This document shows positions 28,033-43,600 of a stretch of DNA of 64,000 nucleotides, piece by piece (the first letter of the stretch is position 1; every line of letters begins with the position of its first letter). A model generated the notes under the pieces. It was not told where the DNA came from, made no database searches, and saw only the letters and a program-made list of their open reading frames with translations. The stretch comes from Deltaproteobacteria bacterium (GTDB lineage Bacteria; Myxococcota_A; Polyangia; Polyangiales; JADJMO01): positions 1 to 64,000 of the forward strand of contig JANYDK010000123.1 in assembly GCA_025363655.1 (NCBI GenBank), in the 5' to 3' direction. The translations under genes and the position numbers were made by a program.

Positions 28033-31000
28033 TTACTTCTTCGCCAGGAGCACGGCGGCGATCGCACGCACCCGCGGTTCGGCGTCCGACTTCGCGGCCT
28101 GCTCGAGCACCGGGCGGGCCTCCGGCCTGTCGGTCGCCGCGAGGGCACGGAGCGCGGTCTCGCGGACGAACGCATATTCGTCGCCGAGGGCTGATTTCTG
28201 CAGCGGCGCGAGCACGTCGGCCTTCGGATCGCGCTTGCCGATGGCCCCGAGGGCGCGAGCGGCATCGGCGCGCACCGACCAAAGTTTCGCCGACGAGAGG
28301 AGCTTGGCGAGCGCGGGCACCGACGAGCCATCGCCGCGGAGCGAGAGCTCTTCGACGGCGAGGCGCTGCACGTCGACCGAGGCATCGGTGAGCGCATCGA
28401 CGAGCGCGTCGCGGGCGACCGGGGTCTCGCGTCGGCCGAGCCAACGAATCGCGCGCGTTTGCACCGCGAGCTCGGGGTGGTGGACGAGTCCGGCGACGAA
28501 CGGCTCGCAGGCGACGGCGAGGCGACGTGCGGCTTCGAGCGGCGGAGCACCAGAATCTTTGGCGCCGAAGCCTTCGGTGAAGACGCCGAACGAAGCACCC
28601 GGAGAGGCGAGCATCGCGTCGAGGACGACGATGGTGCGATCTTTCGAAGTCTGCAGCGCGGTCTCGGCGGCGGCGGTGAGCGGCTTTTCGTAGGCGACGA
28701 GCGCGGCGCCGAAATCGGCCGCGGTGTAGGTGGTGGGGACGAGCGCGTTGATCGCACCTTCGGAGGTCAAATCGCCTTCGGGCACGGGCATCGGGTCGGC
28801 GACCGCGCGGAATTCGCCGGCTGCGAGCGCGGCGAGCGCGATGGTTCCGGCGCGACGGAGCTTGGCGTCGCCGTCGATGGCGGCCTCGGCGAAGGAGGTC
28901 ACCGGCGCATCGGTCGCGGCCGAGGGCTTGGCCTTCGGATCCTTCTTTCCCTTGCCGGCGAGCACCATTCGCGCGAGCGCGAGGAGCGCGGCGCGTCGTT
29001 CGATGGGCTTCGTCGAGGTCTCGAGCCTTCCGGTGAGGATCGATCGCGACGCTGCTTCGCCGATTTCGCCGAGCGCATAGAGCACCGCCGCGCGGCTGTT
29101 GTCGTCGGCCTCGCTGCGACCGAGGAAGGCCATCAGCACAGGCAAATGCGCCTTGTCGTGCGTCTTCGCCAAATGAAGGACGCCGAAGATTCGCATCTGG
29201 ATCGGGAGCGCTTCGAGGGCTTCGACGAGTCGCACCGCCAGCGGCGTCGCCTTCTTGTCGTCGATGCGAGCGAGGCCCCACGCTGCGGCGATGGCGACGG
29301 CGTCACCCGGGCGCGGCCCCGTCTTGGGGAAGAGATACTCCTCGTACTTGGGCACCAGCGCCGGATCGCGGAGCGCACCGCAGGCCACCATCGCGCGCGC
29401 ACGCATCGACGGATCGCCTGCTTTTCCCGTGGCATACGTGAAGAGAGGCGCGCCGGCGGTCTTGTTCTCGACGAACGCGAGGACCTCGATCGCGGTCCGC
29501 TGCTGGGCGACGTCGGCGTCGGAGAGCGCGTCGATGAGCGGCTGGACCGCGCGCGCGCCGATCTTCACGAGCCGCGCGTGGGCCACCGTCGCGTCGGGAC
29601 CCCCGAGCTTCACTTGATAGATGAGCGGCGCCGTCAGGTTGGCGTAGACCTCGACGAGGAGACGCCGATAGACCGCTTTTTGCGGGTTGCTGAGCGCGAT
29701 CGGGAGGAGCTCGGTCTCGAGGACTTCGAGCGTGCCGCGCTTCTGGTTGATGGCGGTGGAGAAACGAATCGCGTTGGCGACGAGCTCGTCGTCGCCCGAG
29801 CCACGCATGACGCGACGATAGAGCGCGTCGGCCTCGACCTCTTCGCCGCCCGCGAGCAGCAGCTCGGCGAGCTCGAAGTAGACCGCCCACAGCTTCGGGT
29901 TGTGGGTGATCGCGAGGCGAAACTCTTTGATCGCCGACGGGAAGTCCTGCAGCGCGCTGTACTTTTCGCCCAGCTTTTTGTGCCCATCCGCGTCTTGCGG
30001 GGAGAGCGCGACGGCGGCAGCGGCGTAGCGGATGGCGTCTTCGTCCTTGTACGTCTGTTCGGCGTAGTTCGCGAGGCGCGTGTAGTAGACGCGCGCGCTC
30101 TTCGGGTCGGCCTTCACCAGCTCCTCGAGGATGGCCATCGCCTCGGAGATTTTCCCCTGGTTCACGAGCACGCGCTCGAGCACGAGGCGCGCATCGATGT
30201 CGCCCGGAGCCTCTTTGATGATCGCCCGCAGCGTCGTCTCGGCGTCGATGTGCCGACGAAGGTGGAGCTGCACCTCGGCGAGGAGACGCCCTGATTCGAG
30301 ATCGACCGGCGGACCCTTGAAGGCGAGCGTCAGCGGAGCGATCTGCGCGTCGAGCTTCTTCTGCGCCAGCCAGAGCAAGACCAAGTGCGTGCGCGCCTCG
30401 CGACGGACGAGCTTGTCGACGTCGTTGCGCTTGAGGATGGTCTCCCAGATGCCTTGCGCCTCGATGTACTTGTGCACGCGCTCGAGCGCGGTCGCGTAGC
30501 CTTTTTGCAGCGGAATTTCCGCGGGCGAGAGGTCGATCGCCTGCTTGTAGGCGTCGAGCGCGTCGTCCCCGAGATCGTGATCGAGGTAGACCTCGCCGAG
30601 CGCCGCCAGCCCCTTCGCCTTCGGCGTGATCACCGTCAGGAGGCGCTTCCAGATCTCCTTCGCCTTCGGCGTCTGCCCGCGCTGGTAGTAGTAATCGCCG
30701 AGATCGACGATGTAGCTCGGATCGTTGGCGTTGCTCCCCGCGAGCTTCTCCATGAGCGCGAGGGCGAGCTTGTCTTCGCCGATTTGCGAGTAGTAGTTGG
30801 CGAGCCGCTGGAGGACGTCGGGATCGCCCGCCGCCGAGCCTTCGAGCGTCTTCAGCTTGCCCATGCACTTCGGCTTCTCGCCGCGACCGATGAGCAAGTC
30901 GCAGAAATCGAAGACGTACTGCGGCTGACCTTTGGCGTGACTGATGAGCTGCTCGTACTGCTTGATCGCTTCTTCGATCTTCGACTGCTCCTTCAAGAGA

Positions 31001-32154
31001 CGAATGAGGAGCACGCGTGTGTCGACGTGCGTCGGCGCCGAACCGAGCGCTTTTCCCAGCCATTTGATGGCCTTTTCGGCGTCGAACTCGGCGGCGAGGC
31101 GACCGAGGAGCTCTTGCCGCTCGACGTCGCCGGGGTTGTCTTTCTCGAGCTCGGTGACGAACTCTTCGATCTTGTTCTGCGCGCGGTAGGCGTCGGCGAT
31201 GGCGTTGAGGATGCGGACCTTGACCGCCGCTTCGCTGCCCGCCGACGCGAGCCCTTTGCGCAGCGTCTTCACCGCGTCTTCGTACTTCTGCAGCTTCACC
31301 TGGCAGATGCCGAGGTTCAGCAGCTGCGGCGCGAGCACACGGTTGTCACCGGAGGCCGCTTTGACGACCTCGACGTATTCGGTCTCGGCCTGCTCGTACT
31401 GCCCCTTGAGGTAGTAGCTGCGCGCCAACTCTTCACGCACGGCCATCGAGTCGCCGTTCGCCTTCACCAGCTCGGAGTGCCATTTTTTGGCCCCGGTGTG
31501 GTCTTTGAGGTCGATGGAGATCTCCATCAACGCGCGCAGCGTTCCCTCGCGCTCGACCTTGTCCTTCTGCAGCGGCAACGCCTTCTCGAAGAGCGTGGCT
31601 GCTCCTTTCAGGTCGTTCGAGTCTTGTTTGAGACGCGCGAGGGCGAGGATGGCGACGGCTTTGTCGGGCTTCTGCGCGATCGCGGTCTCGTAGGCGGCGA
31701 GCGCGTCCTTGTCGCGCTTGTCCTGCTTCAGGAGCCCCGCATACGTGAGGAGCGCCGCCCACTTCTCGTCGGCGGTGAGCGTCGCGTCGCCGTCCTTCGC
31801 TTTCCACTCGGCGATTCCCTTGTCGAGGTTGCCGTCGCGATCGCGATAGAGCTGCGCCAGCTTCAGCACCGGCCCCGACTCGCCCGGCCGCGCCAACGCG
31901 ATGATCGTGGCCTTTTTGAAGGGATCTTTCTTCTTCGCGCCCGGCGGATCGTCGGGATTTTCGGTCGCCGACCCCGACCCCGGTGGCTTCGCCGTACCTG
32001 GAACGGGCGGCTTCTTCCCGGTGCTCGTCGTCACCACCGGCGGCTTCTTCGGCTTCTTCTTTCCCGAAGGATCGAAGTCGGCATGCGCGACGCCGATGCC
32101 GACGACGGAGGCGAGGGCGAGGACGACGAGGTGGCGAAGGCGCATGGGGGGCAT
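28033..32154 (-). CDS. Giant exported TPR and HEAT-repeat protein
   Basis: 1373 residues. Signal peptide ending near VAHAD (about residue 26), then a Lys/Pro-rich linker (30-80). Residues about 95-830 carry many tetratricopeptide units (for example ALAAYETAIAQKPDKAVAILAL, ADALYRRVMRGSG, DALDAYKQAIDLSP). The last 500 residues are HEAT-type repeats (RAAVLYALGEIGEAA, VRADAARALGAIGK, VRETALRALAATDR). Such proteins are protein-interaction platforms, here in the periplasm or at the outer membrane. No catalytic domain. A lipoprotein gene follows by 14 bases and may encode its anchor or cargo. Confidence 0.8.
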   Translation of the reverse strand: MPPMRLRHLVVLALASVVGIGVAHADFDPSGKKKPKKPPVVTTSTGKKPPVPGTAKPPGSGSATENPDDPPGAKKKDPFKKATIIALARPGESGPVLKLAQLYRDRDGNLDKGIAEWKAKDGDATLTADEKWAALLTYAGLLKQDKRDKDALAAYETAIAQKPDKAVAILALARLKQDSNDLKGAATLFEKALPLQKDKVEREGTLRALMEISIDLKDHTGAKKWHSELVKANGDSMAVREELARSYYLKGQYEQAETEYVEVVKAASGDNRVLAPQLLNLGICQVKLQKYEDAVKTLRKGLASAGSEAAVKVRILNAIADAYRAQNKIEEFVTELEKDNPGDVERQELLGRLAAEFDAEKAIKWLGKALGSAPTHVDTRVLLIRLLKEQSKIEEAIKQYEQLISHAKGQPQYVFDFCDLLIGRGEKPKCMGKLKTLEGSAAGDPDVLQRLANYYSQIGEDKLALALMEKLAGSNANDPSYIVDLGDYYYQRGQTPKAKEIWKRLLTVITPKAKGLAALGEVYLDHDLGDDALDAYKQAIDLSPAEIPLQKGYATALERVHKYIEAQGIWETILKRNDVDKLVRREARTHLVLLWLAQKKLDAQIAPLTLAFKGPPVDLESGRLLAEVQLHLRRHIDAETTLRAIIKEAPGDIDARLVLERVLVNQGKISEAMAILEELVKADPKSARVYYTRLANYAEQTYKDEDAIRYAAAAVALSPQDADGHKKLGEKYSALQDFPSAIKEFRLAITHNPKLWAVYFELAELLLAGGEEVEADALYRRVMRGSGDDELVANAIRFSTAINQKRGTLEVLETELLPIALSNPQKAVYRRLLVEVYANLTAPLIYQVKLGGPDATVAHARLVKIGARAVQPLIDALSDADVAQQRTAIEVLAFVENKTAGAPLFTYATGKAGDPSMRARAMVACGALRDPALVPKYEEYLFPKTGPRPGDAVAIAAAWGLARIDDKKATPLAVRLVEALEALPIQMRIFGVLHLAKTHDKAHLPVLMAFLGRSEADDNSRAAVLYALGEIGEAASRSILTGRLETSTKPIERRAALLALARMVLAGKGKKDPKAKPSAATDAPVTSFAEAAIDGDAKLRRAGTIALAALAAGEFRAVADPMPVPEGDLTSEGAINALVPTTYTAADFGAALVAYEKPLTAAAETALQTSKDRTIVVLDAMLASPGASFGVFTEGFGAKDSGAPPLEAARRLAVACEPFVAGLVHHPELAVQTRAIRWLGRRETPVARDALVDALTDASVDVQRLAVEELSLRGDGSSVPALAKLLSSAKLWSVRADAARALGAIGKRDPKADVLAPLQKSALGDEYAFVRETALRALAATDRPEARPVLEQAAKSDAEPRVRAIAAVLLAKK

Positions 32155-33926: not shown

Positions 33927-34526
33927 GTGAAGCGTGTCCCTGCCTCCGTCCGTGAACCGCTTCGGCGAGCCCTGCAAGCCCGTCCGCGGCGGGAGATGCG
34001 CGCCAAGGAGCGCGGCACCGCGACGCCGGCGAGCGTGCTCCTCCCCCTCGTCGAGCGCGACGGCGAAACGTACATCTGGCTGACCCGAAGGCCCGAGACG
34101 ATGAAACGTCATCGCGGTCAGGTCGCATTTCCCGGCGGCAAGCGCGACGCGGGCGACGAATCGGCGCTCCACACCGCGCTCCGTGAAGCACAAGAAGAGG
34201 TCGGCTTCGCGCCCAGCCTCGTCGACGTCTTCGGCGCGCTCGACGAGATGGTCACCGGCACCGGCTTCCACATCGCGCCCTTCGTCGGCTGGCTCCGCGA
34301 GGACGCACCGGCGAAGCCGAACCCACACGAAATCGCCCGCGCCTTCTGCGTGCCGCTCGCCTCGTTCGTCTTCACCGAGCCGCGCCCACACTTCTTCCGC
34401 GGCAGTGGCATCACCCGCATCGCGCCGAGCTACCACGTCGACGGCGAGCTGGTGTGGGGCGCCACCGCCAAAATCATGATGGATTTCGTCTCGGTGGTCC
34501 GACAGGTGCTACGCGCGGAGGGTTGA
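33927..34526 (+). CDS. Nudix hydrolase, CoA-pyrophosphatase type
   Basis: 199 residues. Contains LTRRPETMKRHRGQVAFPGGK, the block typical of CoA pyrophosphatases (NudL/PCD1 group), immediately joined to the Nudix box with conserved Gly71 and the REAQEEVG core (about 87-94). The expected reaction is Mg-dependent hydrolysis of a nucleoside diphosphate linkage, such as CoA to 4'-phosphopantetheine and 3',5'-ADP. No signal peptide. It is 12 bases upstream of the biosynthetic operon on the same strand and may be its first gene, or an independent housekeeping gene. Confidence 0.85.
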   Translation: MKRVPASVREPLRRALQARPRREMRAKERGTATPASVLLPLVERDGETYIWLTRRPETMKRHRGQVAFPGGKRDAGDESALHTALREAQEEVGFAPSLVDVFGALDEMVTGTGFHIAPFVGWLREDAPAKPNPHEIARAFCVPLASFVFTEPRPHFFRGSGITRIAPSYHVDGELVWGATAKIMMDFVSVVRQVLRAEG

Positions 34527-34538
34527 GGCGATGAGGCG

Positions 34539-35480
34539 ATGAGAGTCGCGCGGGGGCTCGCGCTGCGATGGATGGCCGGCGCCGGAGCGACGCTCGGCGA
34601 AGCAGTCGTCGACGACGCCTTCGCGCGCGACGATGTGCTCGTACGCGTCCGCGTCGCGGGAATCTGTCGCACCGATCTCTTCGTCGCCGAGGGTCTCCTC
34701 GAGGCGCGCGACGGCGTGGTCCTCGGACACGAGCTCTGCGGCGTGGTCGAAGCGGTCGGCCGCGACGTCGACGATCTCGCGCTCGGCGTGCGGGTGACGG
34801 CCCATCCATACGTGCGCTGTGGCGGCTGCGTCGCGTGCGAGGCCGACAGGCCGGGGGCTTGCGAGCGTCGGCAGCAGCTCGGCGTCCACCGCGACGGCGC
34901 CTTCGCGACGTGGGTGAAGCTGCCTCGTTCGGCGTTGCATATCTTACCTATGCACCTCGACGAGCGGGCCGGCGCCTTCGTCGAGCCGGTCGCCGCGGCG
35001 CTCGGGGTCCTCGATGCGCCGATCGATCGATCGTCGCGCGGCGCCGTCTGGGGCACGCATCGGGTCGCGCGACTGATGGCGAGCGTGCTCGCAGCGAGCG
35101 GTTTCGATCGAGTCGAGCTCGTCGATGCGGCGAGCCCCCGAGTCGCGCCATCGACGTTCGACTTCATCGTCGAGGCGACGCCGACCGAGGAGGCGATGAA
35201 GGACATGCTCTCGGCGGTGCGCCCGTTGGGATGCATCGTCCTCAAGAGCCGGCCACCGAAGGCGATCGCGCTCGATTTTGCCCGCGCGGTCGAACGTGAG
35301 GTGACGCTGCGGGCGGTCCGTTACGGGAGCTTCGAGGACGCGATCGCCTTGCTCGCGAGGGGAGCGCTGGCGACGGACGAGCTCTTCGGCTCGGTCCATC
35401 CGCTCGCCCGCTTCGCCGACGCATTCGCCGAGGCGCGCGCCGAAGAACGAAAGATCTTCCTCGCGCCGGAAGGGACGTGA
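34539..35480 (+). CDS. Zinc-type MDR alcohol dehydrogenase-like protein
   Basis: 313 residues, somewhat short for the family (usually about 340-350). The catalytic domain is well kept: VAGICRTDL (Cys43), GHELCG (His64, Glu65) and the structural-zinc loop CGGCVACEADRPGAC (about 94-108). The nucleotide-binding half is unusual: the expected GxGxxG after the first strand reads WGTHRVA, so two of three glycines are missing. It may use another cofactor geometry or be impaired. Expected role is oxidation or reduction of an alcohol/aldehyde in the cluster's pathway, for example the aldehyde released by the NRPS-like enzyme. The gap to asnB is 4 bases. Confidence 0.78.
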   Translation: MRVARGLALRWMAGAGATLGEAVVDDAFARDDVLVRVRVAGICRTDLFVAEGLLEARDGVVLGHELCGVVEAVGRDVDDLALGVRVTAHPYVRCGGCVACEADRPGACERRQQLGVHRDGAFATWVKLPRSALHILPMHLDERAGAFVEPVAAALGVLDAPIDRSSRGAVWGTHRVARLMASVLAASGFDRVELVDAASPRVAPSTFDFIVEATPTEEAMKDMLSAVRPLGCIVLKSRPPKAIALDFARAVEREVTLRAVRYGSFEDAIALLARGALATDELFGSVHPLARFADAFAEARAEERKIFLAPEGT

Positions 35481-35484
35481 GGCG

Positions 35485-37395
35485 ATGTGTGGCCTCTTCG
35501 GCGCGTACTCGCGCGAGAAGCCGATCGAGCACGCCGTCGTCGCGCGCGGTCTCGAGGCGCTTCGCCATCGCGGGCCCGACGGCGAAGGCGTCTTCTTCTC
35601 GCCCGATGCACGCGTCGCGCTCGGACACGTGCGCCTCGCGGTGATCGATCGCGAGACGGGCGCGCAGCCGATCGAGAACGAGACGGGCGACGTGGTGGCC
35701 ATCGTCAACGGCGAGCTCTACGACTTCGAGCGCCAAAGGCGGGAGCTCGAGGCGCGCGGTCACCGCTTCCGCACGAGGAGCGACAGCGAGCTGGTGGTGC
35801 ACCTCTGGGAGGAGCACGGGGAGGGGATGCTCGCTCACCTCCGCGGAGAATTCGCCTTGATTTTGTGGGATGCGCGCGACCGCACGTTGCTCGCTGCGCG
35901 CGATCCGTTCGGAGTCCGGCCGCTCGTGTTCACCACCCACGAGGGCACGCTCTGGCTCGCCTCGGAGGCGAAAGCGCTCTTTGCGATCGGGGTGCCTGCG
36001 AGGTGGGATCACGCGTCGTTCCATCAGGCCGCGCAGATGCAGTACCCGCTCCCCGATCGAACGATGTTCCGCGACGTGCGGCAGCTGGCGCCGGGAGAGC
36101 GCCTGCGTGCACGCGGAAGCACGCTCGAAATCGCGCGCTACGTCGATCTCGACTACCCGCGCGAGGGCGAGCGGCGTGAGCGTGACGAGCGTGACGAACA
36201 TGACGAGCTCGCGGACGCGACGAACTTTCGCGCGGTGCTCGAGGAGGCGACCCGTCTTCGGCTTCGTGCCGACGTGCCGATCGCGTTCCAGTTGAGCGGT
36301 GGCATCGACTCGACGGCGGTGGCTGCCCTCGGCGCGCGCGCGAGCGGGGCTCCCATCGACGCCTTCACGCTCTCCTTCACCGACGACGCGGACGGCTACG
36401 ACGAGAGCACCATCGCTGAAGAATCAGCTCGTTTTTTCGGTGCGCGGTGGCATCCGGTGCGTGCGACGGCGCAGCAGCTGGCGGGCGCGTTCGTCACCGC
36501 GGTGCGCCACGGAGAAGGTCTCGCGATCAACGGTCACTTGGCGGCGAAGCTCCTCCTCGCGCGCGCCGTTCGCGCCGCTGGCTTTCGCGTGGTGCTCACC
36601 GGCGAAGGCGCCGACGAGGTGCTCGCGGGCTACGCGCACCTCCGTCAGGACCTGCTCGGAGTCGGTGGAGACCGACGACTGCTCGACGACAACCGCGCCT
36701 CCGCCGGGCTCATGCTCCCCGACGGCGAAGGGCTCCCGCTCGATGCGGTGCGCGCGCGGCTCGGCTTCGTCCCCACCTTCCTCGCCGCCAAGGCCACCCT
36801 CGGTCGGCGTCTCGAGCCGCTCTTGTCGGCGCAGCATCGGCGCGCCTTCGCTGGCGTCGATGCCTTCGCGGTGTTCCTCGATGCGCCCTCGCTCGACGTC
36901 GAAGGTCAGCTCCGCGGGCGACACGTCGTCGATCAGTCGCTCTACCTGTGGTCGAAGACCGCCCTCGCTGGCTACATTCTCCGCACGCTCGGCGATGGAA
37001 TGGAGATGGCGAGCGGCATCGAGGGCCGCCTGCCGTTTCTCGATCCACTTGTTTTCAAGCATGTTCGCGCGCTCCCGATCGACCTCAAGATTCGCGATGG
37101 GGTGGAGAAGCACGTGCTCCGCGAGGCGATGCGCGGGCTCGTCCCCGAACGGGTTCGAGTGCGCCAGAAGCACCCTTTCCTCGCGCCACCGAATCGACAC
37201 CTCGACGAGCTCCTCCACGATCGTCTGCGCAGCGCCTCGTTCGCGACGCTCCCCTTCTTCGATGCCCGCGCGATGCGCGCCTTGCTCGACGACGTGCCGA
37301 CGATGACCGCGGCCGAGCGACGCGTCCTCGAGCCAGTGCTGATGCTCGCCCTCACGACGTCGATCCTCGGCGAGACCTTCGGGCTCGCGACATGA
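35485..37395 (+). CDS. asnB: Asparagine synthetase, glutamine-hydrolysing
   Basis: 636 residues. The N-terminal glutaminase domain starts with MCGLFGAYS, Cys2 being the nucleophile, followed by LRHRGPDGEG and NGELYDF. The C-terminal synthetase domain has the pyrophosphate loop LSGGIDS (270-276), TGEGADEVLAGY and GIEGRLPFLD. The usual reaction is ATP-dependent conversion of aspartate to asparagine with glutamine nitrogen; within a biosynthetic operon the same chemistry can amidate another carboxylate. A charged insertion (residues about 229-243, Glu/Arg/Asp repeats) sits between the domains. The stop overlaps the next start (ATGA). Confidence 0.9.
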   Translation: MCGLFGAYSREKPIEHAVVARGLEALRHRGPDGEGVFFSPDARVALGHVRLAVIDRETGAQPIENETGDVVAIVNGELYDFERQRRELEARGHRFRTRSDSELVVHLWEEHGEGMLAHLRGEFALILWDARDRTLLAARDPFGVRPLVFTTHEGTLWLASEAKALFAIGVPARWDHASFHQAAQMQYPLPDRTMFRDVRQLAPGERLRARGSTLEIARYVDLDYPREGERRERDERDEHDELADATNFRAVLEEATRLRLRADVPIAFQLSGGIDSTAVAALGARASGAPIDAFTLSFTDDADGYDESTIAEESARFFGARWHPVRATAQQLAGAFVTAVRHGEGLAINGHLAAKLLLARAVRAAGFRVVLTGEGADEVLAGYAHLRQDLLGVGGDRRLLDDNRASAGLMLPDGEGLPLDAVRARLGFVPTFLAAKATLGRRLEPLLSAQHRRAFAGVDAFAVFLDAPSLDVEGQLRGRHVVDQSLYLWSKTALAGYILRTLGDGMEMASGIEGRLPFLDPLVFKHVRALPIDLKIRDGVEKHVLREAMRGLVPERVRVRQKHPFLAPPNRHLDELLHDRLRSASFATLPFFDARAMRALLDDVPTMTAAERRVLEPVLMLALTTSILGETFGLAT

Positions 37396-38255
37396 AGGGT
37401 GCATCGTCGGACACGCCTTCGGGAGCAGCGCTGCGGCGTGCGATCTATCGCGGCGCGATCGTGCGCTTCGACGCCAACGCGGCCTCGCGCCGACTCCGTG
37501 CCTCGATCGTCGCCTGCATGTCACCCGAGCTCGGCGAGCTCGGCGAGCTCGAACGGATGCGACGTTGCCACGAGCGGCTCGGCGCGCGGCTCTTCGAGGT
37601 CGTGACCGAGTTGCGGGCGCGACTCACCACCGATCCGCGGGTGCTCGCCGACGTACGCGCGCTGCTCGAGACGCACGGAATCGATCCCGAGAAGACGGCG
37701 ATCGACGTCCCGCGACTGCGCGTGATCGCGCCCTTCGCGCATCGCATTCCAGCGGCGGCGCCCGCGTATTTCGCGCATCGCGACACTTGGTACGCCAACC
37801 CCGACGCGCAGCTCAACTGGTGGATGCCGCTGCACGCCGTCAGCGCGCGGGACACCTTCACGCTCCACCCCGACGTCTTCGCCACGCCCATCGCCAACGA
37901 TTCGGAGACCTTCGACTACCAGACCTGGAAGAACGAGGTCGGCTTCCAGGCGCGGCATTCGAAAGTAGGCGCGAGCTATCCCCGTGCGCTGGTCGACGTC
38001 GGCGCCCTTCGCGCAGTTCCCGTCGTCGCGCGCGCGGCCGAGGTGATCGTCTTCTCCGGCGCCCACCTTCACCGCACCGGCGACAACGAGACGAATCGCG
38101 CTCGATTTTCCGTCGATTTTCGTACCGTCGACCTCGCCGATGATCGCGCTGGCGTCGGAGCACCCGACGTCGACGATCGCTCGCGCGGGTGCACGCTTGC
38201 CGACTACGAGATGACTTCGACCTCCAGGTCGGCGGAGCGCGGAGCGAGATCATGA
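37392..38255 (+). CDS. Phytanoyl-CoA dioxygenase-like Fe(II)/2-oxoglutarate enzyme
   Basis: 287 residues, beginning at the ATG that overlaps the asnB stop. It shows an HxD pair (His129, Asp131) in HRDTWYANP, a LNWWMPL strand, and a distal SGAHLHRTGDN with His227 as the likely third iron ligand, followed by RFSVDFRTV where an Arg may bind 2-oxoglutarate. This arrangement matches PhyH-like oxygenases of secondary metabolism. Expected reaction: hydroxylation or related oxidation of a small substrate. The open frame extends much further upstream inside asnB, but only the overlapping ATG makes sense. ATGA overlap with the next gene as well. Confidence 0.72.
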   Translation: MKGASSDTPSGAALRRAIYRGAIVRFDANAASRRLRASIVACMSPELGELGELERMRRCHERLGARLFEVVTELRARLTTDPRVLADVRALLETHGIDPEKTAIDVPRLRVIAPFAHRIPAAAPAYFAHRDTWYANPDAQLNWWMPLHAVSARDTFTLHPDVFATPIANDSETFDYQTWKNEVGFQARHSKVGASYPRALVDVGALRAVPVVARAAEVIVFSGAHLHRTGDNETNRARFSVDFRTVDLADDRAGVGAPDVDDRSRGCTLADYEMTSTSRSAERGARS

Positions 38256-40975
38256 CGCGCACGAGCAACGTCGCGACGAGGGTGCGAACCGTCGCCGAAC
38301 GAACGCCGACGGCGCGCGCGATCGACGCCTTCGACGAGGTGCTCGACTACCGCGCGCTCGTCTCCCGCGCCTCTACGCTGGGCGGCGCGCTCGCCGACGC
38401 GGGGGTGAGACGCGGACAGACCGTCGGCATTCTGCTGCATAAATCAGGCGCGATCGTCGTCGCGATGCTCGCCTGTCACCACCTCGGCGCAGCGTTCACC
38501 CCGCTCGATCCGTCGCTCCCGCCGGCGCGCCTCTCCCGCATGATCGCAGACGCGGGGATCGCGGTGGTGATCGCGCGCGAGACCGATGGCGCGCTCGCGC
38601 GTGAGCTGGGCGTGACCTTCGTCGATCTCGGCGCGCACGGACCCGACAGACCTCCCGTCGTGCTCGAGGACGACGACCTCGCCTACGTCATCTTCACCTC
38701 CGGCAGCACCGGCGTGCCCAAGGGCGTGGAGATCCTCCATCGCGGTCTCTTGCCGCTGATCGACGCGCAAATCGCGGCGTTTCAGGTCGATTCGTCGTCG
38801 CGATCGCTGCTGCTCCTCTCCACGAATTTCGACGCTTGCCTCTCGGACGTCTTCACGACCTTGGTCGCCGGCGCGACCTTGCACGTCCCCGAGCCGGCGG
38901 CGGTGGCGACCGTCGAGGGATTGCGATCGACGTTGCGCGCGCGGCGCATCACCCACGTCGACCTTCCGCCAGCGCTCCTTCGCGTGCTCCCGGCCGACGC
39001 GCTGGCAGAGGTGCGCGTGGTCATCGTCGGGGGAGAACCGTCGTCGCCGGCGCTGCTGCGACGATGGGCCTCGCGCGTGCGGCTCGTCGCCGTCTACGGC
39101 CCCACCGAAGCGACGATTTGCGCGAGCCTCACCGTCGTCGATGCACACCGTTGGGATCGGCCGAGCCTCGGAGAGCCCTTGCCGCACGTGCGTTTGTTGC
39201 TCTTGCCCGGCGGTGAGCTCGGCATCGGAGGACCTTGCCTCGCGCGGGGATATTCCGCGCAGCCCGCGCTGACGGCGGAGCGCTTCGTCATGCACGAAGG
39301 CGAGCGCATCTACCGCACCGGTGATCTCGTGCGCGCGTCTCCCGATGGCACCTTCGAGTTCCTCGGCCGGCGCGACAGGCAGCTGAAGCTGCACGGACGT
39401 CTGATCGCCCCCGAAGAAATCGAAGCCGCGCTCTTAGCGCATCCAGCCGTGCGCGAGGTCTTGGTGGCCTGTGAAGCGGGCGCGCTCGTGGCCCATGTCG
39501 TTCCGCTCGAGGAGCGTTCGATGGCACCGGCAACGTCGATGCGCGCGCACCTCGCCGAGTCTTTGCCGTCGTGGATGCTGCCGACCCGCTTCGTCACTCA
39601 TTCTTCGTTTCCGCGTACCGCGAGCGGCAAGATCGACGCGTCCGCGATCGCGGCGAGTTCCTCGAGCGATGGAAAGGGGCCGGAGAAGGGCCGCGGTGGT
39701 CCGCCCGAAGGACCTCGCGAACGCACGATAGCCCGTATTTTTCAGGAGATTCTCGGCATCGGCGAGCTCGGACGCGAAGACGATTTCTTCGCGCTCGGCG
39801 GCGATTCGCTCGGCGTGCTCGCGTTCGTGGCCGCCGCCGAAGCCGAGCGCCTCGGCATCCCCACCGAGGCGTTCACCCGCCCCTCGACGATCGCCGAGCT
39901 GGCGGTGGCGAGGGAGACCACGATGTCCGTCGCCGCGCTCGAAGACGACACGCGCCCGCTCGTTCGCGCGCCCGAGTCCACGACGGCGGGAGTCGAGCGT
40001 GCCCGAGATCGATCGCGGCGTACCGTCTTCGTCACCGGTGCGACCGGCTTCCTCGGAGTCCACTTGGTCGCTGCGCTGCTTCTCCGTGACGACGTCGAGG
40101 TGATCGCCCTCGTCCGCGCGAGCGACGACACCGAGGCCAAGACGCGGCTCGATCGGGCGCTGCGTGCGAATGTCGACACGGCGAAACTCTCGCCCAAACG
40201 AGCTCGGATCGTCGCCGGCGATATCAGCGTCGATCGCTTCGGGCTCTCGGGCGCGAGGTGGGACGAGCTCGCGCGCTCGGTCGATCACGTCTTCCACGTC
40301 GCTGCCGAGGTGAGCTACGCGCGCAGCCATCGTGACCTGCGGGAGGCCAACGTCGTCGGCACCGCACGCGTCCTCGAGCTCGCTGCCCGCGGCGGCGCCG
40401 CCTTCGCCCACGCGTCTACGCTCGACGTGATCGACGGCGCTCTCGAGGTGCGTGGCGGCTACGCACAGAGCAAGTGGGCCGCCGAGTGGCTGGTGCGGAG
40501 GTCACGCGAAGGGGCATGCCCGACGAGCATCCACCGCTTCGGCCTCCTCGCGGCCAGCGACGCGACCCTGGCCCGTCCGCGCGACGAGCTGCTTGCTCGG
40601 TTTTTGTGGCGAACCCGCGATCACGGCGTCGATCCCGAGCTGCTCCGGGACGGCGCCATCGACCTCGAGCCCGTCGATCATGCGGCGGCGGCGATGGTGC
40701 ACTTCGCACTCGATGCCGAGGTCACGAAGACGTACTTGCATGGTGGCAAGCAACGCATCCTCGTGTGCGAGCTCGTCCAAGAGATGCGTGCGCAGGGGCT
40801 CGACGTCGTCGTCCGCGCCGGTGGCGAAGCTCCTTCGACCTCGTCAGCGCTCTTCGCAGGCGACCGCGTCGTTTCGCGCCCTCGCGAGAGCGAGCCGAAA
40901 ATCCCCTTCGATCGACGCGCCTACGTCGCGAGGCTGATCGCGAGCGTCTTCGCCGAGAGCGGGTCGTGCGCATGA
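38252..40975 (+). CDS. NRPS-like protein: adenylation, thiolation and thioester reductase domains
   Basis: 907 residues, no condensation domain. Adenylation domain (about 1-470): FTSGSTGVPKG from 148, FDACLSDVF, VYGPTEAT, YRTGDLV and PRTASGKID. Thiolation domain with the phosphopantetheine serine in LGGDSL (Ser519). Reductase domain from about 590: VFVTGATGFLG for NADPH and the Tyr737/Lys741 pair in GYAQSKWAAE. It should activate an amino or carboxylic acid as an adenylate, load it on the carrier and release it as an aldehyde (or alcohol). ATG 38252 overlaps the upstream stop and has GGAG seven bases before it. The binding-pocket residues, aligned from memory to GrsA, read DASAIGVIC plus the terminal Lys, somewhat like aromatic amino acid pockets. 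Confidence 0.88.
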   Translation: MTRTSNVATRVRTVAERTPTARAIDAFDEVLDYRALVSRASTLGGALADAGVRRGQTVGILLHKSGAIVVAMLACHHLGAAFTPLDPSLPPARLSRMIADAGIAVVIARETDGALARELGVTFVDLGAHGPDRPPVVLEDDDLAYVIFTSGSTGVPKGVEILHRGLLPLIDAQIAAFQVDSSSRSLLLLSTNFDACLSDVFTTLVAGATLHVPEPAAVATVEGLRSTLRARRITHVDLPPALLRVLPADALAEVRVVIVGGEPSSPALLRRWASRVRLVAVYGPTEATICASLTVVDAHRWDRPSLGEPLPHVRLLLLPGGELGIGGPCLARGYSAQPALTAERFVMHEGERIYRTGDLVRASPDGTFEFLGRRDRQLKLHGRLIAPEEIEAALLAHPAVREVLVACEAGALVAHVVPLEERSMAPATSMRAHLAESLPSWMLPTRFVTHSSFPRTASGKIDASAIAASSSSDGKGPEKGRGGPPEGPRERTIARIFQEILGIGELGREDDFFALGGDSLGVLAFVAAAEAERLGIPTEAFTRPSTIAELAVARETTMSVAALEDDTRPLVRAPESTTAGVERARDRSRRTVFVTGATGFLGVHLVAALLLRDDVEVIALVRASDDTEAKTRLDRALRANVDTAKLSPKRARIVAGDISVDRFGLSGARWDELARSVDHVFHVAAEVSYARSHRDLREANVVGTARVLELAARGGAAFAHASTLDVIDGALEVRGGYAQSKWAAEWLVRRSREGACPTSIHRFGLLAASDATLARPRDELLARFLWRTRDHGVDPELLRDGAIDLEPVDHAAAAMVHFALDAEVTKTYLHGGKQRILVCELVQEMRAQGLDVVVRAGGEAPSTSSALFAGDRVVSRPRESEPKIPFDRRAYVARLIASVFAESGSCA

Positions 40976-41973
40976 CCGTCACGAAGCCTCGACGCGGATT
41001 GGTGCTCGGCAAGTTCCTCCCGCCGCACGCCGGGCACGTCCATCTCGTCGACTTCGCGCGCGCCCATTGCGACGAGCTGGCGGTCGTCGTCGGGACGCTC
41101 GCGCGCGAGCCGATCCCCGGCGAGGTGCGCTTCGGCTGGATGCGCGAGCTCTTCCCCGACGCGCACGTGCTCCACCTCACCGACGAGAACCCCCAATACC
41201 CCGAAGAGCATCCGGACTTCTGGAACATCTGGAAATCGAGCCTGAAGCGCGTCTTGCCGTTCGACATCGACCTCGTCTTCGCCTCCGAACCGTACGGCGC
41301 GAAGTTGGCGGAGGTGCTCGGCGCAGAGTTCGTGCCGGTCGACGTCGAGCGCGTCCACGTGCCCATCAGCGGCACCGCCCTCCGCGCCGATCCGATGACC
41401 CACTTTCGTTTTCTGCCGCGCTGCGTACGTCCGTGGTTCGTACGCCGCGTGTGCGTCTTCGGACCGGAGTCGACCGGAAAGACGACGCTCGCCCGACGTC
41501 TCGCCGAGCGCTTCGAAACCACCTGGGTGCCCGAGTTTGCGCGCGCATACCTCGAAGCACGCGGAGGCGTCGTCGATGACGCCGACTTCGCGCCGATCGC
41601 GCGCGGGCAGATCTCCTCCGAGGAGGCGCTGGCCAAGGACGCCGATCGCGTGCTTTTCTGCGATACCGACGTGCTGACGACGACGATGTGGAGCGACGCG
41701 CTGAGGGGCCACTGCGACGCGTGGATTCGCGCCGAGGCCGAGCGACGTACATACGATTGTTATCTATTGACCGACGTCGACGTGCCGTTCGTGGACGATC
41801 TGGTGCGCTATCTGCCGAACGAGCGTCGCGCCTTTCACGCGCGCTGCGTAGAGGCGCTGGAGACGCGGGGACGACGATTCGTCCACGTGCGCGGCTCGTG
41901 GGACGAACGCTTCGCCATCGCCGAGGCCGCGGTGCTCGAGCTGCTCGCGGAGAAACCGGAGGAGCCGACGTGA
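40972..41973 (+). CDS. nadR: NadR-like NMN adenylyltransferase / ribosylnicotinamide kinase
   Basis: 333 residues, lacking the DNA-binding helix-turn-helix of enterobacterial NadR. The nucleotidyltransferase part has GKFLPPHAGHVHL (13-25, the HxGH signature) and ISGTALR (132-138). The kinase part has Walker A GPESTGKTT (164-172) and VPEFARAYLE. Both catalytic centres look intact. The known family reactions are nicotinamide riboside to NMN and NMN to NAD. Start ATG overlaps the NRPS-like stop and the stop overlaps the GMC start, so it is embedded in the cluster. It could supply NAD(P), or act on a pyridine-type nucleoside in the pathway; the latter is speculation. Confidence 0.85.
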   Translation: MTVTKPRRGLVLGKFLPPHAGHVHLVDFARAHCDELAVVVGTLAREPIPGEVRFGWMRELFPDAHVLHLTDENPQYPEEHPDFWNIWKSSLKRVLPFDIDLVFASEPYGAKLAEVLGAEFVPVDVERVHVPISGTALRADPMTHFRFLPRCVRPWFVRRVCVFGPESTGKTTLARRLAERFETTWVPEFARAYLEARGGVVDDADFAPIARGQISSEEALAKDADRVLFCDTDVLTTTMWSDALRGHCDAWIRAEAERRTYDCYLLTDVDVPFVDDLVRYLPNERRAFHARCVEALETRGRRFVHVRGSWDERFAIAEAAVLELLAEKPEEPT

Positions 41974-43502
41974 GGAACGAGGCTTTCGCAGACACCATCG
42001 TCGTCGGCGCGGGAAGCTCCGGTGCGGTCATCGCGAGCCGCGCGACCGAGCGGAGCGATCGCGAGATTCTCCTCGTCGAAGCCGGCCCCGACTACGCCGA
42101 GCTGGGCGATCTGGCGCGCGACCTCCGCGACGGCACGCGCAACTCGATGTGGTCGCACGACTGGCGCTTCCGTCATCGGCCGCTGCCGGGTCAGGTGATT
42201 TTCCCTTTTCCGCGCGGCAAGATCGTCGGCGGCTCCTCGGCGGTGAACACCTGCATCGCCATCCGCGGGCAGCCCTACGACTACGACGAGTGGGCCGAGC
42301 TCGGTCTCCCCGATTGGACCTGGGAGCAGTGCCTGCCGGCGTTCAAGCGCATCGAGGACGACCGCGATCTGGTGAACGAGTGGCACGGCCAAGGCGGCCC
42401 GATCCCCGTGCGTCGTCATCCGCGAAGCGAGCTCACGCCGTGGCAGGCGGCCTTCACCGATGCCTGTTTGGGGCTTGGTTTTCCGGCCTGCAGCGATCAC
42501 AACGACCCGACCCAACGTGGCGTCGGGCCGCACACCATGAACAAGATCGACGGCGTCCGTCAGAGCGCCGCGCGTGGCTATCTGCGAGCCGAAGTGCGCG
42601 CACGGCCGAACCTGAAGATCCTCGCCGACACCTTGGTGCGCCGCGTCCTCGTCGAGGGAGGTCAGGTCTCCGGCATCGAGATCGAACGCGGCGGCAGCGT
42701 CAGCACCATCGGCGCCCGTCGCGTCTTCCTCTGCGGCGGCGCCATCGGAACGCCTGGAATTCTCCTGCGATCGGGCATCGGACCGCGTGAGCGCATCGAG
42801 CGCCTCGGCGTCGATCTCGTCGCCAATCTGCCCGGCGTCGCCGCGCGTCTCCTCGATCATCCGGGCGTCGCCATCTTCCTCGTTCCGAAGCCGAAGAGCT
42901 TCGTCCCGACGCATCTCATCCAGTCGCTGCTCCGCTTCACCTCCGAAGGGAGCCCCTATCGCGACGACATGCAGCTGCAGGCTGGCTCCTTCGTTCCCTT
43001 GCCGCGCAACGCCGGCGTCCTCCCGCTCGTCTCCATCATGAGCAGCGTCGGCAAACCCCGCGGGCACGGGAAAATCCACTTCGAGAGCGCCGATCCGCGG
43101 AGTCGTCCCCGCATCGAGAGCGACCTCCTCGGCCACCCGCGCGATCTCGACTGCGCCGTACAAGCGATGGAGCTCGCGTGGCTTTGCGCCAGCAGCAAAG
43201 AGATGCGCGAGCACGCAGTCTTTCTTTGGCCGGGTGAGCGCACGCTCCATCGCCGCGACTGGATCCGCGAGTTCGTCGTCAAGAGCTGCGACTCCGGCTA
43301 CCACCCCTGTGGCACCGCGCCGATGGGACCGGACGACGACGAAGAGGCGGTGTGTGACGGTCGCGGTCGCGTGCGCCAGGTCGACGGCCTCTTCGTCGCC
43401 GACGCCAGCGCGATGCCGACGATTCCCAGCGCGAACACCAATTTTCCCACCTTGATGATGGGCGAGCGGTTCGGCGAATGGGTGCGCGACGGCGGCGTGT
43501 GA
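41970..43502 (+). CDS. GMC-family flavin-dependent oxidoreductase
   Basis: 510 residues from GTG 41970, which overlaps the previous stop (GTGA) and has a strong GGAGGAG (41958-41964) five bases upstream. FAD-binding GAGSSG (13-18) and LLVEAGPDY, then the GMC signature KIVGGSSAVNTCIAIRG and, near the C-terminus, YHPCGTAPMG (catalytic His445) and NTNFPTLMM (Asn491 as likely second catalytic residue). Family members (choline and alcohol dehydrogenases or oxidases) oxidise alcohols to carbonyls. Here it probably acts on the cluster's intermediate. No signal peptide, so a cytoplasmic reaction is expected. Confidence 0.9.
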   Translation: MRNEAFADTIVVGAGSSGAVIASRATERSDREILLVEAGPDYAELGDLARDLRDGTRNSMWSHDWRFRHRPLPGQVIFPFPRGKIVGGSSAVNTCIAIRGQPYDYDEWAELGLPDWTWEQCLPAFKRIEDDRDLVNEWHGQGGPIPVRRHPRSELTPWQAAFTDACLGLGFPACSDHNDPTQRGVGPHTMNKIDGVRQSAARGYLRAEVRARPNLKILADTLVRRVLVEGGQVSGIEIERGGSVSTIGARRVFLCGGAIGTPGILLRSGIGPRERIERLGVDLVANLPGVAARLLDHPGVAIFLVPKPKSFVPTHLIQSLLRFTSEGSPYRDDMQLQAGSFVPLPRNAGVLPLVSIMSSVGKPRGHGKIHFESADPRSRPRIESDLLGHPRDLDCAVQAMELAWLCASSKEMREHAVFLWPGERTLHRRDWIREFVVKSCDSGYHPCGTAPMGPDDDEEAVCDGRGRVRQVDGLFVADASAMPTIPSANTNFPTLMMGERFGEWVRDGGV

Positions 43503-43600
43503 CTCTGGTGCCTCGCTTCGTCTACTTTCATCGATTGGGCGGCGCGCCCGCGGAAGACGTGCCTCGGCTCTTGCGCGAAACGCTGCGCGGATCGGGGTAG
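43499..43600 (+). CDS. Possible 33-residue peptide at the end of the cluster
   Basis: A GTG at 43499 overlaps the GMC stop codon in the same GTGA fashion as the other junctions and opens 33 codons to TAG at 43598. The predicted peptide is basic and amphipathic (begins MTLVPRFVYFHRLGG, ends in LLRETLRGSG). No ribosome-binding site is evident, so expression would rely on coupling. It may be a chance frame; only the conserved junction pattern argues for it. Confidence 0.25.
   Translation: MTLVPRFVYFHRLGGAPAEDVPRLLRETLRGSG

Follow-up and report, generated by a model that had tools for sequence, protein, structure and literature searches.

Several described systems share parts of their chemistry with the operon analysed here. 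Lys2 (L-aminoadipate-semialdehyde dehydrogenase), CAR (carboxylic acid reductase) and the myxochelin synthetase MxcG, which has a C-A-T-R architecture, combine adenylation, one carrier and a thioester-reductase domain, with conserved catalytic residues. In altemicidin biosynthesis, NAD serves as a building block, and a PLP enzyme joins NAD and SAM (PMC11610977). A pyridine-dione is formed from Gln-S-PCP, and the A-domain code DAQDLGVVDK is assigned to glutamate or glutamine (PMC12283262); the related code DAKDLGVV is assigned to glutamate (PMC10548584).

The window (the whole stretch of 64,000 nucleotides that was analysed, from contig C107 of the 9.0-Mb assembly G000, which its named relatives assign to Myxococcota) contains an operon that resembles each of these systems in part. 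Its A-T-R protein shares the domains and conserved catalytic residues of Lys2, CAR and MxcG, but it has no condensation domain and its code resembles those for Glu/Gln, not aminoadipate. As in altemicidin-type pathways (PMC11610977), biosynthesis appears tied to pyridine-nucleotide chemistry, but through NadR and not through consumption of NAD, and no PLP-dependent NAD/SAM annulase (SbzP-like) is present in the window operon or among the recurring neighbours of 46 compared loci. Indigoidine-type Gln cyclisation on a carrier domain would share with the cassette a Gln-like substrate and possible aza-ring formation, whereas the cassette would use reductive release instead of the oxidase/thioesterase route and contains five further enzymes. 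A sequence-only reading of the window had called this gene combination unfamiliar, and no characterised cluster with the set was found in the literature searched; searches on the combination, the A-domain code and NadR-containing natural-product clusters gave nothing relevant, with subscription papers and MIBiG outside their scope. It is well supported that the genes belong to one unfamiliar small-molecule pathway, which is broader than first thought.

Genes and enzymes of the operon

The window sequence and its open reading frames place six co-directional genes at 34539-43502, directly downstream of a NUDIX gene. Numbers refer to the order in the conserved cassette described below, whose third gene encodes a methyltransferase (MT).

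33927-34526, plus strand: NUDIX hydrolase, CoA pyrophosphatase-like (PF00293, 5.6e-14); outside the conserved set
34539-35480, plus strand: MDR, zinc-dependent medium-chain dehydrogenase/reductase, 313 aa (ADH_N, 3.7e-22); conserved cassette gene 1
35485-37395, plus strand: AsnB, glutamine-dependent asparagine synthetase-type amidotransferase, 636 aa (GATase_7 and Asn_synthase); conserved cassette gene 2
37392-38255, plus strand: OXY, predicted 2OG-Fe(II) oxygenase (PhyH/PtlH fold), 287 aa, assigned by predicted fold and residues; conserved cassette gene 4
38252-40975, plus strand: A-T-R (ATR), single-module NRPS-like protein, 907 aa (AMP-binding, PP-binding, NAD_binding_4); cassette gene 5
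40972-41973, plus strand: NadR, putative NMN adenylyltransferase and ribosylnicotinamide kinase, 333 aa (AAA_28 and CTP_transf_like); cassette gene 6
41970-43502, plus strand: GMC-type FAD oxidoreductase with a GTG start (GMC_oxred N and C); local addition, outside the conserved set

MDR and AsnB are separated by four bases (GGCG), ATGA overlaps join AsnB to OXY (at 37392), OXY to A-T-R (38252) and A-T-R to NadR (40972), and NadR and GMC share a GTGA overlap (41970). The sequence-only reading had given this order and these junctions exactly to the base, and its single carrier domain is indeed held by the A-T-R protein. The NUDIX gene, which the sequence-only reading did not include, ends 12 bases before MDR and is possibly co-transcribed with the operon; its product scores 120.1 bits against NF007980 (CoA pyrophosphatase), under the cut-off of 134. 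It was rejected as a pathway gene of an altemicidin-like kind, as it does not recur beside the 46 compared loci. Upstream of the operon, a predicted 1373-aa tetratricopeptide/HEAT-repeat-like protein is encoded on the opposite strand (28033-32154, minus).

The A-T-R protein has the features of an NRPS-like A-T-R reductase, as judged from its A, T and R domains, its Ppant serine (Ser519 in 44/44 sequences) and the S/T-Y-K residues of the R domain (Ser722 in 43/44, Tyr737 in 44/44 and Lys741 in 43/44). Membership in the described reductase families was rejected, with scores of 244.8 bits for Lys2 (TIGR03443, cut-off 1030), 172.8 bits for CAR (cut-off 1300) and 417 bits for MxcG (cut-off 2300, no C domain). 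The A-domain code, DASD(I/V)G(V/C)(V/I), is constant in loci of all phyla and reads, in GrsA numbering, D235, A236, S239, D278, I/V299, G301, V/C322 and I/V330. It is nearest to the Glu/Gln codes DAKDLGVV and DAQDLGVVDK, from which it differs at position 239 (Ser); no exact match is reported in the literature searched. For stand-alone A-T-R proteins, predictions from such codes are unreliable.

Sequence comparisons of MDR and AsnB revealed similarly intact active sites. In MDR, the catalytic residues C43, D46, H64, E65 and E149 are invariant in 38 sequences. AsnB scores 386.5 bits against TIGR01536, above the cut-off of 267.1, and has the Cys2 nucleophile in 39/39 sequences and invariant SGGxDS, GEGADE and K562, features that characterize a putative glutamine-hydrolysing asparagine synthetase B.

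The sequence-only domain assignments were borne out for the dehydrogenase, AsnB, A-T-R, NadR and GMC proteins. For OXY, the label "PhyH-like" holds only through the predicted fold and the HxD..H..R residues: the window protein has no match in Pfam or NCBIfam, and neither it nor the L042 homologue matches PF05721 (PhyH). Its structural model (pLDDT 88) matches the folds of PtlH (2rds, Z 14.9) and human PhyH (2a1x, Z 13.4), and H129, D131, H227 and R238 are invariant in 49 sequences, which characterizes OXY as a predicted 2OG-Fe(II) oxygenase with a double-stranded beta-helix fold. When PDB sequences were searched with the OXY alignment, the sole match, to CytC3, was below threshold (E 0.65). 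The cassette defines a 2OG-oxygenase family that lacks a Pfam or NCBIfam model.

Distribution and block structure of the cassette

OXY matches were found in 32 of the 379 Myxococcota genomes searched, and most of the 20 myxococcal loci fetched carry MDR, AsnB, OXY, ATR and NadR adjacent to each other, with MT between AsnB and OXY. A single-sequence OXY scan of genome contigs gave no match; an alignment scan succeeded, returning 144 relatives from 84,980 species genomes, of which 80 were kept. The order MDR-AsnB-MT-OXY-ATR-NadR is exact in 19 of the 46 loci tabulated, the remainder being mostly rotations or contig-truncated versions, and most untruncated loci hold all six genes together. The cassette spans about eight phyla, with members in Myxococcota, Acidobacteriota, Planctomycetota, Verrucomicrobiota, Lentisphaerota, Melainabacteria, Alpha- and Gammaproteobacteria and one actinobacterial MAG, and catalytic residues are nearly invariant across its enzymes. 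Cultured hosts include Acanthopleuribacter pedis, Sulfidibacter corallicola (complete genome) and the planctomycete TBK1r (complete chromosome); further hosts include Rubritalea, Kangiellaceae, Lentisphaera, Obscuribacter and Alphaproteobacteria. With six genes in about 8 kb, the cassette is small enough for expression as a whole, and since cultured hosts exist, its product is directly testable. The only clear large insertion seen here lies in the myxococcal cassette of L049, where four unrelated predicted genes (L049:11045-16359) separate AsnB from MT-OXY. Plasmid matches to OXY are not accompanied by the rest of the cassette: in Sinorhizobium the other cassette genes are absent, and in Aminobacter no such annotated genes lie nearby.

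The sequence-only reading had proposed a single pathway, which conserved synteny in distant genomes would support. Five of its six genes do keep a fixed order across distant phyla, so the homologues are linked rather than scattered. Each single family is common in bacteria, as would be expected of a chance or housekeeping operon whose genes share no pathway; because the order is fixed and the genes diverge jointly in many phyla, we rejected this explanation, which is most improbable. The membership of the set has to be corrected on sequence comparison, with MT included and GMC left out. The GMC oxidoreductase, previously counted as part of the pathway, occurs only in the window and does not recur beside the 46 comparison loci; it was rejected as a core gene and is a local addition. 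When all open reading frames of these loci were clustered, no other neighbour recurred apart from signalling genes, scattered over some loci, and the tandem NadD of four Melainabacteria loci, and the conserved set contained no phosphoribosyltransferase, nucleoside phosphorylase or transporter. The claim that the window operon outlines a complete pathway was not supported, as MT, the usual sixth gene, is unlinked and the set is without a ribosyl-transfer gene or transporter.

Within the cassette, pairwise divergence is strongly correlated among MDR, AsnB and ATR (r 0.79-0.83; MDR against AsnB 0.83, against ATR 0.79) and between MT and OXY (r 0.76), compared with r 0.28-0.48 for the remaining family pairs. 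The cassette is composed of block A (MDR-AsnB-ATR, usually with NadR) and block B (MT-OXY). The two can lie apart: AsnB-ATR-NadR is found elsewhere in the same genome in the case of L075, as is AsnB-ATR in the genomes of L076 and G002. In the window's genome, MT (47% identity) is encoded on another contig (G000:C19:13464-14192; L153:1486-2232). A linked MT is also absent from G259, whose cassette is for most genes the nearest to that of the window, and a search of that genome for MT gave weak matches only. Some genomes have OXY and NadR and no detected ATR (G140, G179 and G274, with NadR ~2 kb from OXY in G274), which may represent a smaller OXY-NadR module or assembly gaps, and OXY occurs alone in G017 and G073.

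A natural reading of the MT-OXY pair would be hydroxylation followed by methylation at the same position. Distant OXY relatives in Pseudomonas and Paraburkholderia (L123, L129, L133 and L143, ~9.9-11.6 kb) have a 4-base overlap with a gene for a TylF-type O-methyltransferase, and in some of these loci flagellar basal-body or sugar-nucleotide genes lie nearby. This setting, together with the resemblance of AsnB to the XrtA amidotransferase, would fit a modification of sugars or surface glycans, in which a sugar would be the substrate of OXY and MT, with the other enzymes making an amidated substituent for it. We consider this quite improbable: the relatives in Pseudomonas share only ~32% identity and are without the other five genes, and neither glycosyltransferase nor sugar-nucleotide genes recur next to the cassette.

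A cassette-bound NadR lineage

The catalytic motifs of the window NadR, the sole NadR of its genome, are intact for both NMN adenylyltransferase (NMNAT) and ribosylnicotinamide kinase (RNK), and assign the protein as a putative NMN adenylyltransferase/NR kinase. Like known NadR proteins, including the solved relatives 8x7f, 9x6f, 1lw7 and 6gye, it has both domains and all motifs. In contrast to these, the cassette NadR has no HTH domain, belongs to a cassette-bound lineage and has a decayed or split NMNAT half in some loci. It also falls below the TIGR01526 cut-off (309.7 against 341.15 bits), a threshold passed in only 2/14 control genomes.

In Myxococcota, 22 genomes have both NadR and OXY, 6 OXY only, 11 NadR only and 340 neither (Fisher p 2e-22, genomes not being independent). 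On a tree built from 55 NadRs, 2 changes suffice for the cassette label, compared with 13.3 in shuffles, which indicates a cassette lineage that crosses phyla and led us to reject NadR as a generic neighbour, though it is unlinked in some genomes. A few unlinked NadRs, among them those of the cassette-bearing G193 and G067 and the OXY-bearing G179, are nested in this lineage, which suggests that the gene sometimes leaves the cassette; nested NadRs are also found in G012 and G112, which are without OXY or ATR.

Four Melainabacteria loci, which form a single lineage and count as one event, have lost the NMNAT motifs of NadR and kept the kinase motifs intact. The motif has decayed to GDFCPLTNAHV or RESFLSQQNSHV, or is absent from the recovered part of the L094 protein, whose contig starts inside the gene. 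These loci contain an additional feature:

L076:4990-6348, L077:2326-3690, L094:8592-9959 and L099:3729-5030: tandem-duplicated, NadD-like gene

The NadD scores 190.6 bits against TIGR00482, above the cut-off of 112. L071 encodes NadR as two separate genes, which both remain in the cassette. Because NadD replaces the decayed half and L071 keeps both halves, kinase and nucleotidyl transfer both seem to be needed, and the NadD substitution points to an acceptor of the pyridine-mononucleotide type.

In an alternative role, NadR would only supply or recycle NAD, restoring it after a pathway enzyme consumes NAD or frees nicotinamide riboside or NMN, and the pathway would yield an ordinary amino aldehyde or amino alcohol in modified form. 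Most loci keep all canonical NadR motifs, replacement by a bona fide NadD fits ordinary NaMN/NMN chemistry, and G012 and G112 have relatives of the cassette NadR on their own. However, the other five enzymes include no member of a known NAD-cleaving class, and the cofactor demand of MDR, the R domain and AsnB is no more than normal and is covered by housekeeping NAD synthesis. This explanation is possible, if rather unlikely.

Candidate pathway and product

For this set of genes, with its synteny, co-occurrence, joint divergence within blocks and intact catalytic residues, our best reading is that a small molecule is made in a presumptive order of steps. We tentatively propose, as something quite possible but short of probable, a mobile pathway of six enzymes in two sub-blocks that leads from reductive release of a Glu/Gln-like amino acid to an NAD-type dinucleotide. 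The A domain would load a glutamate- or glutamine-like amino acid onto the single carrier domain, and the R domain would release it reductively as an amino aldehyde, which MDR may reduce or further oxidise. AsnB would use the nitrogen of glutamine to make a carboxamide on the side chain or ring, while OXY and MT, acting as a pair, would hydroxylate and methylate. Finally, NadR would act as kinase and then as nucleotidyltransferase to convert a pyridine-nucleoside or mononucleotide-like intermediate into the dinucleotide.

The most economical guess for the base is an aza-ring that the amino aldehyde closes with the amide nitrogen, comparable to Gln-derived pyridine-diones on carriers. This ring closure is the weakest step of the proposal. 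Such a route from a Gln-type amino aldehyde via an aza-ring to a nucleotide would explain the place of NadR in the set; as the set has no phosphoribosyltransferase or phosphorylase, the nucleoside would need a housekeeping enzyme. The inexact A-domain code and the genomes with OXY or NadR outside the full set also count against the proposal. A more specific version, that the product is a novel NAD-like dinucleotide, either cofactor or antimetabolite, with a Glu/Gln-derived hydroxylated and methylated base and completed by NadR, is unlikely as it stands. Upkeep across about eight phyla, the constant code and a dedicated NadR suggest that the metabolite is generally useful and not an antibiotic specific to single strains.

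NadR could also have been repurposed, with its kinase and nucleotidyltransferase converting an amino alcohol from A-T-R and MDR into an NDP-activated amino alcohol, as in Kennedy-type activation of headgroups. The kinase and CTP_transf_like domains are the parts required, and both persist where NadR is split (L071) or half-decayed. Still, we regard this as distinctly unlikely: no phosphotransferase or lipid gene recurs, NadR has the motifs of NMN/NR enzymes (FWxxW segment, GKFxPPHxGH, ISGTxxR and RNK motifs), and the NMNAT half, where lost, is replaced by a nicotinate-nucleotide adenylyltransferase.
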